NCBI GenBank assembly: GCA_016214785.1
Contig: JACRNV010000055.1
Span: 1-64,000, forward strand
Reading direction: 5' to 3'
Length of the DNA stretch: 64,000 bases
From: Methanobacteriota archaeon
GTDB lineage: Archaea; Thermoplasmatota; Thermoplasmata; SG8-5; JACRNV01
Both the position numbers and the translations under genes were made by a program. A model generated the notes under the pieces. That model did no database searches, was not told where the DNA came from, and saw only the letters and a program-made list of their open reading frames with translations. Shown piece after piece: positions 1 through 1,968 of this stretch (the stretch's first letter is position 1; every line of letters starts with the position of its first letter).

Positions 1-135
1 CAATGCAATAAGGAGATCAAAAAACCGCTGCATAATAAGTACTTCAAGTCTGTGCCTGCCATACGGCAGGCAGTCCGACGGTTCCTTAAGAATGATTTTT
101 TTATGCCCAAAATGTTTACTTATTTATGTCCTTAG
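1..135 (+). mobile_element. 3' end of an IS630-like transposase gene (partial)
   Basis: Frame 1 is open from the window edge to a TAG at 133-135 and encodes 44 residues. The segment KKPLHNKYFKSV followed by AIRQAVRRFL resembles the C-terminal tail of DDE transposases of the IS630/Tc1 group, where a K-x-P-L-H-N-K-Y-F-like stretch precedes a basic helix. Only the tail is visible, so catalytic residues and terminal repeats cannot be checked. Its stop codon overlaps the 3' end of the leftward gene at 132-446, which suggests the insertion sequence landed in or beside that gene. Assigned by resemblance alone. Confidence 0.45.
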
Positions 136-446
136 CTATTAACATTAGGATTGCTCTTATATTTATTTGCCAATTCTAATTTTCTAGTATCGTCCATGTA
201 ATATAAACACAAAACATACTCTTTTCCTTTTTTATGTTTGTCTGTGTTTATTTTGGCATGAGGGAAACCACCGAATTCTAGTTCGTTAATGGCAATCTTT
301 TCCAACTCGCCTTTATTCTCAGAGAAAAAGAGATATTTTCCAGAGATTCTAGGCTCTGATTTTGATTGTCTAAAATAATAATGCCAGTCTTCACTATCTC
401 CTCTAAATACATTAGCGGAGACTTTTATAATGGTCTCATGTTCCAT
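132..446 (-). CDS. Small hypothetical protein, first visible gene-cassette-like ORF
   Basis: A 104-residue protein of unknown function with no signal peptide or membrane segment. The middle part (SGKYLFFSENKGELEKIA, then KEYVLCLYYMDD) recalls small proteins annotated with a putative phosphothreonine lyase domain, but I would not assign a function. Those proteins usually continue past the NPNV near the end, so this copy may be cut short by the transposase-bearing insertion at 1-135. The gene is AT-rich, unlike the core genome. It has a strong bacterial-style Shine-Dalgarno (AGGAGGG, 7 nt before the ATG). It starts about 45 bp beyond an attC-like site, the position expected for an integron cassette gene. 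Confidence 0.6.
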   Translation of the reverse strand: MEHETIIKVSANVFRGDSEDWHYYFRQSKSEPRISGKYLFFSENKGELEKIAINELEFGGFPHAKINTDKHKKGKEYVLCLYYMDDTRKLELANKYKSNPNVNS

Positions 447-489
447 ATCATACCCTCCTTCTCTTTAATCGCCCGAAGTCCACGATTTC

Positions 490-569
490 ACTTAACGTTT
501 TGCGGATAAAAGAAGTTGCCGAAGGCAATTTGGGGAAATCTTTGATTTCCCTTTTATCCGCTGTTAGGC
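490..569. other. attC-like (59-base element) recombination site
   Basis: An 80-bp imperfect palindrome has the layout of an integron attC site. On the plus strand it begins with ACTTAAC (fits RYYYAAC) and ends with GTTAGGC (fits GTTRRRY). Inside are the inverted arms GCGGATAAAAG (502-512) and CTTTTATCCGC (551-561). The central part folds into two small hairpins (TTGCC-GAA-GGCAA and GAAATC-TTT-GATTTC), like the variable terminal structure of attC sites. It lies 23 bp after the stop of the leftward gene at 593-1033 and before the next leftward gene, as in a cassette array. Spacing between core box and arm is uneven (1 nt versus 5 nt). Confidence 0.7.
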
Positions 570-592
570 GCCGTGCCGTCACATTGTTTTCT

Positions 593-1033
593 TCATGCCT
601 GTGAGGGTACATAGATCTTTCTCCCGCTTGCCCAGCTATCCCACCACTCTATCTTCTTAGGGTTGATCCTCAGCAAGCAAAACTCTTCAGACTCTGGACC
701 ATTTGGGAAGTGTTCTGTCAAGTTAAAAGTTGCAAGATTCCATACCCTCTTTTTCGCCTCTACAGGTTCTACAATCTCAGCATCACCTGTTACTGTTGCA
801 GTTTTATCTCCAGAAGGATACTGAACAAACGCTAAACTGATTTTGGAGTTTTGTTTAATTTGTTTCACCTTTTTGGAGTTGGCAAAAGTTGTCACCCAGA
901 TAGACATATCATCCTCAATAATGGGTGAAACAGGACGGACTTGCGGCTGGTCACCATCACAAGTTGCTAAAAATGCTAGAAGACAGTTTTCTTTCATTAT
1001 GGCAACTATCTTTTCCTTTTCAGATTGGTTCAT
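593..1033 (-). CDS. Pyridoxamine 5'-phosphate oxidase-family protein (cassette gene)
   Basis: This 146-residue protein has the split-barrel flavin-binding fold of the PNPOx-like/general stress protein 26 group. Family signs are the N-terminal helix and strand (CLLAFLATCDGDQPQVRPV), the SKKVKQIKQNSKISLAF stretch, and a C-terminal strand with the KKIEWWDSW motif. Such proteins bind FMN, F420 or haem; which one cannot be told here, and a true PNP oxidase role is unlikely. The gene is AT-rich. It carries AGGAG 8 nt before its ATG and is bracketed by attC-like sites at 490-569 and 1062-1106, giving a unit of about 575 bp, the usual size of an integron cassette. Confidence 0.85.
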   Translation of the reverse strand: MNQSEKEKIVAIMKENCLLAFLATCDGDQPQVRPVSPIIEDDMSIWVTTFANSKKVKQIKQNSKISLAFVQYPSGDKTATVTGDAEIVEPVEAKKRVWNLATFNLTEHFPNGPESEEFCLLRINPKKIEWWDSWASGRKIYVPSQA

Positions 1034-1061
1034 GTTTGCATCTCCTTACTTACGGCATGTC

Positions 1062-1106
1062 GCCTAACTCGTTATTTAACGTAGTCTTACTTCGTTTAAT
1101 AACGAG
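1062..1106. other. Second attC/attI-like recombination site next to the recombinase
   Basis: The plus strand reads GCCTAAC (1062-1068), so the minus strand carries the core box GTTAGGC. The 14-bp arms at 1068-1081 and 1093-1106 are inverted repeats with one mismatch. On the minus strand the GTTAGGC box lies 28 bp before the start codon of the gene at 593-1033, as at a cassette boundary. The far side (about 1107-1113) has no good second core box. The site is therefore either a decayed attC or the array-proximal attI-type site. It sits in the divergent region between the leftward cassettes and the rightward recombinase. Confidence 0.55.
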
Positions 1107-1125
1107 ATTCCGATGCAAAGCGAAG

Positions 1126-1135
1126 TTTTTATATG
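1126..1135 (+). promoter_or_regulatory. TATA-like box of the tyrosine recombinase gene
   Basis: TTTTTATATG is centred about 31 bp before the ATG at 1162, the usual distance for an archaeal leaderless transcript. It supports 1162 as the start and shows an archaeal-type promoter, in contrast to the Shine-Dalgarno-led genes on the other side. Confidence 0.5.
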
Positions 1136-1161
1136 CCGTGGAGTCATGCCTCCGCACCTGC

Positions 1162-1968
1162 ATGACCGTATCGGCTAATAAACCTGACGCAGCGGAGCGC
1201 TACCGTCTGATTGGCGAGCTCATCATGGAGATTAAGCTGCGCAAGTACTCGTTCCAGACCGGGAAGCTGTACATCTCGATTGTCAAACGCTACCTCGAGT
1301 CCGGCCTGTCCCCGAGGGACTTCCTGCTGGCGCAATCGGACAACAGCCGCTCGACGATGCGCACGTCGTACTTCGCTCTGAAGTTCTTCCACGAGAGCGT
1401 GCTGGGGGAACGCTTCGAGGGGGAGATACCGCTCGCGAAGAAGGCGCAACGGCTTCCGGTCGTCCTGGGCAGGGAAGAAGTCCACAAAATGCTTGGCTCC
1501 ACCTACAACCTCAAGCATCGCGTCGCCCTGATGCTCCTCTACTATGCCGGGTTGCGCCTTAACGAGGCGGCGAGCCTACGCTGGGAGGACGTGGACTTCA
1601 GCAGGGAGACTGTCCACCTGAAGGTTGCCAAGGGAGGGAAGGAGCGCGTCGTCTTCCTGCACCCGAGGCTGGCCGAAGGGCTGAGGCTGCTCGGCGAGGG
1701 GAAGGGATTGATCCTCGTCTCTAACAGGGGAGGGAAGTACAGCCCGAGATCCATCCAGCTCGTCGTCGACAAGGTGGCGAAGAAGGCGGGAATGAAAAAG
1801 AAGGTCACACCGCACGTCCTCAGGCACTCGTTCGCCACGCACTTGCTGGAAGGCGGGGCGGACATCCGCCACATCCAGGAGCTGCTCGGCCACAAGAACC
1901 TCAGGACCACGATGCTCTACACCCATGTGAGCAAGGACGGCGCGAAGGCGCTCGCAAAGCTCCTCTAG
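1162..1968 (+). CDS. Tyrosine recombinase/integrase (XerA-like), divergent to the cassette genes
   Basis: This 268-residue protein has a SAM-like DNA-binding domain (about 10-95) and a catalytic domain (about 100-268). Catalytic residues are visible: R132 in GLRLNEAASLRW, a lysine in the KGGKER turn, H218 and R221 in PHVLRHSF, H244 in LLGHKN, and Y253 in MLYTH. The N-terminal pattern (KYSFQTGKLYISIVKRY, then RLPVVLGREEV) is shared by archaeal XerA-like enzymes and integron integrases. The extra helix that IntI proteins carry before the H-x-x-R motif is absent. The reading frame is open upstream, but the ATG at 1162 is chosen for its TATA-like box. The gene is GC-rich, unlike the cassettes, and ends 2 bp before a duplicated top6A fragment. 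Confidence 0.9.
   Translation: MTVSANKPDAAERYRLIGELIMEIKLRKYSFQTGKLYISIVKRYLESGLSPRDFLLAQSDNSRSTMRTSYFALKFFHESVLGERFEGEIPLAKKAQRLPVVLGREEVHKMLGSTYNLKHRVALMLLYYAGLRLNEAASLRWEDVDFSRETVHLKVAKGGKERVVFLHPRLAEGLRLLGEGKGLILVSNRGGKYSPRSIQLVVDKVAKKAGMKKKVTPHVLRHSFATHLLEGGADIRHIQELLGHKNLRTTMLYTHVSKDGAKALAKLL

Follow-up and report, generated by a model that had tools for sequence, protein, structure and literature searches.

Judging from its sequence, the 64,000-nucleotide stretch of DNA analysed here (the window) very probably carries the recombinase-proximal end of a distinct type of archaeal integron, the candidate integrase of which is a compact Xer-type tyrosine recombinase without an IntI domain. 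Array and recombinase are located at the start of contig C55 of an archaeal genome (2.18 Mb, 67 contigs), next to the genes for both topoisomerase VI subunits, and the GC content of the array is 39% as compared to 59% in the remaining window. As the start of the window is the end of the contig, the array is cut there. A preliminary description of this DNA had suggested that an archaeal chromosome carries gene cassettes in an integron-like array, a suggestion supported by covariation within the attC sites, by the complementarity of R'' and R' boxes and by breakpoints at GTT; the archaeal setting stands as well, although it is not unprecedented, archaeal integrons having been reported already in 2022 (PMC9668308).

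Read on the minus strand from the recombinase, the array comprises a palindromic GTTAGGC site, a gene for 146 amino acids, an attC of 80 bp and a gene for 104 amino acids, followed by the contig end. The recombinase (1162-1968, plus strand; 268 aa; Pfam PF00589, 1.4e-38), a member of what we term the 'arcInt' clade, begins with its ATG at 1162 and is transcribed away from the array, just as initially described. Cassette 1 (496-1067, minus strand) starts with TTAGGC and runs as far as the G of the attC that belongs to it. The GTTAGGC at its 5' end and the R'' box GCCTAAC are exact reverse complements, i.e. as in canonical integrons the 5' end of the cassette is complementary to its own R'' (1/1 in the window). 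Its gene (593-1033, minus strand) encodes a split-barrel flavoprotein of the PPOX/FMN- or F420-binding type (Pfam PF01243, 3.4e-16), for which no homologue was found at E<=1e-15 among the 292 other genomes of the phylum. The preliminary description had credited this gene with its own Shine-Dalgarno sequence, found here as AAGGAG upstream of the ATG, and with spacings of 28 bp and 23 bp, which are confirmed, the exact length of the unit being 572 bp (1067 to 496). Cassette 2 (1-495, minus strand) begins with TTAAGT and is cut by the contig end; its gene (132-446, minus strand; 104 aa) has the position and the orientation, shared with the cassette 1 gene, that had been given for it, and no family was found for the encoded protein.

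The site at 1062-1106 had been listed as the second site of the array. GTTAGGC and the inverted arms are indeed present, and the site folds well (z -4.7 versus shuffles), but an R'' box is absent, so that it qualifies as attI of the recombinase and not as attC. The complete attI (1062-1133, minus strand) consists of a promoter-like TATAAA box (1133-1128), a direct-repeat-like TTCGCTTT (1124-1117), inverted arms at 1103-1093 and 1081-1071, and GTTAGGC (1068-1062) with the insertion point between G(1068) and T(1067), so that, as in canonical integrons, an attI with a G|TT insertion point lies beside the integrase candidate. The same layout with the same spacing is found upstream of 27 clade members: a TATA-like box directed toward the cassettes is located at about -66 in 24 of them, and in most a repeat resembling TTCGCTTT follows near -57 and the inverted arms end in TCGCTTAATAG or a variant directly before G|TT. 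The window elements occupy -66, -57 and the position immediately before GTTAGGC. From +13 onward the information in the attI alignment is only ~0.1 bit per column, and G282 and G227, two genomes of the same genus, share 95% identity over the 115 bases that end with the G, whereas beyond it their identity is 45% (shuffled 47%). Moreover, contigs break within 1.5 kb upstream of the clade gene in 13 members and downstream in 2 (p=0.007), as expected of variable arrays. Reading the palindromic attI as a dif-like resolvase site was dropped, XerA being encoded separately.

The palindrome at 490-569, the coordinates of which hold, is the attC of cassette 1 and reads GCCTAAC-AGCGGATAAAAG...CTTTTATCCGC-AAAAC-GTTAAGT on the minus strand (569-490), i.e. 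the consensus boxes R'' (GCCTAAC) and R' (GTTAAGT) flank a stem of 10-11 bp that encloses two inner hairpins around CCCAAAT. It is the sole match in the 64 kb to a strict search for boxes and stem, and its folding differs clearly from that of dinucleotide shuffles (z -4.7, 0/200). An Rfam search gave no match to an attC family. A strict search for RYYYAAC...GTTRRRY in the relatives returned almost no sites, since it misses boxes such as ATATAAC, and a relaxed search recovered sites. We seeded an attC covariance model with 12 sites (the window site and 11 others), which match it by construction. According to this alignment, in which 91.8% of the cells pair, the class is Y-shaped with invariant CCCAAAT and ACTTC, and its covariation is 0.57 as compared to 0.14 for shuffled and at most 0.12 for slid alignments; just as in canonical attCs, R'' and R' boxes border a paired stem that is conserved more in structure than in sequence. 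In one paired column each of the 12 bottom strands has G-T, corresponding to A-C in the top strand; this is compatible with folding of the bottom strand of attC without proving it.

The preliminary description had proposed a covariance model as a check, and the model derived from related sites scores also outside its seed set, with 41 matches in 34 clade loci, including more than 20 non-seed matches with E<1e-6. The palindromes are strong hairpins that adjoin genes, and one might take them for terminators or regulatory structures of ordinary small genes, a reading with next to no probability, as the boxes are fixed outside the stem, the junction motif is conserved, successive sites exhibit R''/R' complementarity, which contradicts a mere hairpin, and the model finds nothing (0 matches) in 61 loci that surround other recombinases and served as controls. 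Furthermore, the same attC occurs with other outer boxes in other genomes, e.g. nearly unchanged in G060:C143 (L130 11022-11100).

The attC class was found in 47 of the 293 genomes of the phylum and in 14 of 19 genomes of clade relatives, where a Nanohalarchaeota MAG has the highest number (34). Three further attCs are present in the genome of the window, on contigs C38 and C67, one of them after an HNH-like and ParB-like gene pair (names read from the sequence without family search). Direct contiguity of C38 and C55 was considered but is not supported, as the R'' of the C38 attC is GCCTAAC, whereas the R' of the window would require ACTTAAC. These additional sites of the same class on other contigs of the bin argue against an assembly chimera, in which a fragment of a bacterial integron would have been joined to an archaeal contig. 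Although the position of the array at the extreme end of a MAG contig and its deviating GC content would be in line with such an artefact, we consider it very improbable: the window attI matches the attI of archaeal relatives, the unit of the window recurs in G034 and G068, archaeal genomes that each consist of one contig, and only 1 of 50 bacterial control genomes is positive for the attC class. This lone bacterial match, in a Thermoanaerobacterales MAG (L194 1501-1591, G348:C94), is strong and reflects either cross-domain transfer or a binning error.

Cassette logic can be followed along the arrays. When the three variable bases of R'' were compared with the box preceding its cassette, exact match being required, R'' was the reverse complement of the preceding R' in 40 of 61 pairs of neighbouring attCs, with a permutation mean of 5.4 and a maximum of 14 (10,000 permutations). 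Among relatives, content differs exactly at the GTT points, the comparison that had been put forward at the outset. The single-contig genome G068 contains two copies of one attI-cassette-attC unit at a distance of 84 kb (L203 at ~533 kb, L207 at ~617 kb). One of these platforms lies beside a decayed recombinase of which only the two ends are left, the first cassette is common to both, and the copies stop being identical within the R' box of their attC, which reads GTTAAGT in one and GTTATGG in the other.

Where clade loci contain attCs, the array is located upstream of the recombinase and points away from it in 13/13 cases. Within the phylum, 9 of 12 genomes with a clade member and 38 of 281 genomes without one contain attCs (p=5e-6), and when the genomes that provided seeds are left out the relation is 4/7 versus 38/281 (p=0.01). 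The 38 attC-positive genomes without detected clade member imply a contribution of further enzymes or of contigs that the MAGs lack. The model finds no match in three of the 12 clade genomes (G034, G135, G091): G034 looks like an empty integron, and in G135 the contig is cut 267 bp upstream. Upstream of its clade recombinase, G091 (L126 7049-8429) has four palindromic sites in tandem, spaced by 330-580 bp, all of which lack CCCAAAT; by eye, their outer boxes follow the R''/R' rule, and they form a second attC class.

An additional domain near patch III is specific for IntI and is regarded as defining and necessary for an integron integrase, and surveys identify integrases by it. This domain is missing in the window recombinase, which is not an IntI. 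It scores 175.9 bits against the IntI profile TIGR02249 (cut-off 265), slightly fewer than against the archaeal XerA profile, the match to IntI being in two pieces with profile positions 175-239 unmatched, a gap that recurs in the clade relatives. IntI4 (2a3v) has 64 residues at the IntI-specific stretch, the window recombinase 22, and between the KGxK motif of the catalytic lysine and HxLRH the clade has 62-63 residues, compared with 65-69 for XerA-type relatives and 107 for IntI1. The catalytic residues R132, K157, H218, R221, H244 and Y253 are invariant across 16 relatives. The AlphaFold model, which is of moderate confidence (mean pLDDT 78, pTM 0.58), is nearest to XerA and then to IntI4. 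Profile searches found no canonical IntI above cut-off in the genome of the window and none above the NCBI cut-off across the 293 genomes of the phylum.

Clade relatives are 50-65% identical to the window recombinase and come from Pacearchaeota, Woesearchaeota, Aenigmatarchaeota, Diapherotrites, Altiarchaeales, an Archaeoglobaceae MAG and others, and 11 further genomes of the phylum to which the window belongs contain clade members; beyond this group identity falls sharply to <=42%. No close viral relative was found in viral contigs (best 39%). The clade has support of 100/99 and 100/100 in two trees, where it is separate from XerA and from IntI1, and in the second tree IntI1 and the IntI of Candidatus Argoarchaeum join with 100/99 apart from it. 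Long branches make the placement of the clade relative to IntI tentative. The clade is an archaeal recombinase family apparently new to the literature, with members in Thermoplasmatota-like and DPANN genomes as well as in those of Altiarchaeales and Archaeoglobaceae.

The array might instead resemble a CALIN, caught by an IntI that acted in trans or has since been lost, with the XerA dimer resolvase of the host next to it by chance. Such CALINs are common among archaeal MAGs (PMC9668308), attC-positive genomes without clade member exist, and the recombinase has its best matches in the archaeal XerA family (NCBIfam XerA_Arch, 184 bits, cut-off 220) and in XerA structures (PDB 4a8e and 5hxy). 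We nevertheless regard this explanation as unlikely. Not only is IntI absent from the searches described above, but the recombinase lies outside the archaeal XerA clade, the split having 100% support, and the genomes G034, G068, G227, G282 and G060 each contain a clade member plus a second recombinase at 38-42% identity, which falls into the XerA clade in the first four. Moreover, attI and array are conserved together with the clade gene across phyla, and whereas a CALIN has no integrase nearby, the window recombinase is 592 bp from the attC in a conserved arrangement.

Our preferred reading is an integron with a compact Xer-type integrase. The recombinase is transcribed away from its own attI, where circular cassettes would insert at G|TT through recombination with the folded attC, probably in its bottom-strand form, and would stack up one behind another. 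The recombinase would catalyse this recombination by acting on single-stranded attC, and a putative promoter adjoining attI would read into the first cassette. More generally, we think it rather probable that archaea have a second kind of integron with an Xer-type integrase lacking the IntI domain, its own palindromic attI and its own attC class, that this enzyme was recruited independently of IntI or keeps a pre-IntI state and recombines folded cassettes by another structural solution, and that it stands behind many arrays listed as integrase-less.

The system shares its layout, the divergently oriented integrase, G|TT insertion, an attI with L/R and direct-repeat-like boxes, folded attCs and the R''/R' rule with bacterial integrons (IntI/attI/attC, e.g. 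class 1 of R388). It differs in that the clade attI is strongly palindromic in many members and in that attC has invariant CCCAAAT and ACTTC, the model giving no match to the class 1 attCs of R388. With XerA/dif of archaea it has recombinase fold and size in common, but the recombinase is linked to attI and cassette arrays. Thus, integron architecture and cassette logic are kept while the defining domain of the integrase is lacking, i.e. this is not an IntI integron.

Ghaly et al. 2022 (PMC9668308) described integrons from 75 MAGs of archaea, in which only six IntIs were identified, by means of their IntI domain, and the IntegronFinder 2.0 paper (PMC9024848) reported no integron for the archaeal genomes contained in its own database. 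The arrays of Ghaly et al. 2022 (PMC9668308) resemble ours in being attC cassette arrays of archaea, mostly MAGs, with small cassettes and mostly without recognised integrase; however, their attI is downstream of intI instead of upstream of the recombinase, their archaeal IntIs carry the IntI-specific domain, and they were found in MAGs only, whereas here the unit together with attCs is also present in G068, the genome of which is a single contig. A literature search, with subscription papers and preprints outside its reach, yielded only PMC9668308 on archaeal integrons and no paper on such an integron enzyme without IntI domain. Integrons in archaea are thus already known; a non-IntI Xer-type enzyme conserved with attI and arrays across archaeal phyla is new. 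If our reading is true, a widespread archaeal clade that runs cassette logic without the IntI domain would change the definition of integrons, provide candidate enzymes for archaeal arrays without apparent integrase, imply that integrons are more frequent in archaea than known so far, given the attC counts in a single phylum, and offer a test of the origin of integrons from Xer recombinases. The lack of the defining domain may be why most archaeal integrons seemed enzymeless.

In a whole-genome search of the 19 clade-relative genomes one canonical IntI was found, in Candidatus Argoarchaeum G311 (L294, G311:C41), which combines this IntI and its IntI domain with a degenerate clade member (L030) and 15 attCs of the class described here on other contigs; the 10 kb around the IntI contain no attC of the present class. 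Other Xer-like recombinases without IntI domain, ~39% identical to that of the window (L175 12769-13596, G310:C78; L130 8543-9583, G060:C143), adjoin arrays or single attCs of the present class, the attC in L130 being downstream of the recombinase and in the same direction; in G310 such a recombinase, the second Xer-like one of this genome, is located at a distance of 0.3 kb from another array. A second group of attC-associated recombinases may thus exist. Finally, the 3' end of top6A is duplicated in the window as a direct repeat of ~190 bp (1971-2159 and 2793-2985), and a small PIN-like gene (2264-2731) is located between the copies, just downstream of the recombinase; the repeat may have been left behind when an insertion or a duplication occurred at top6A.
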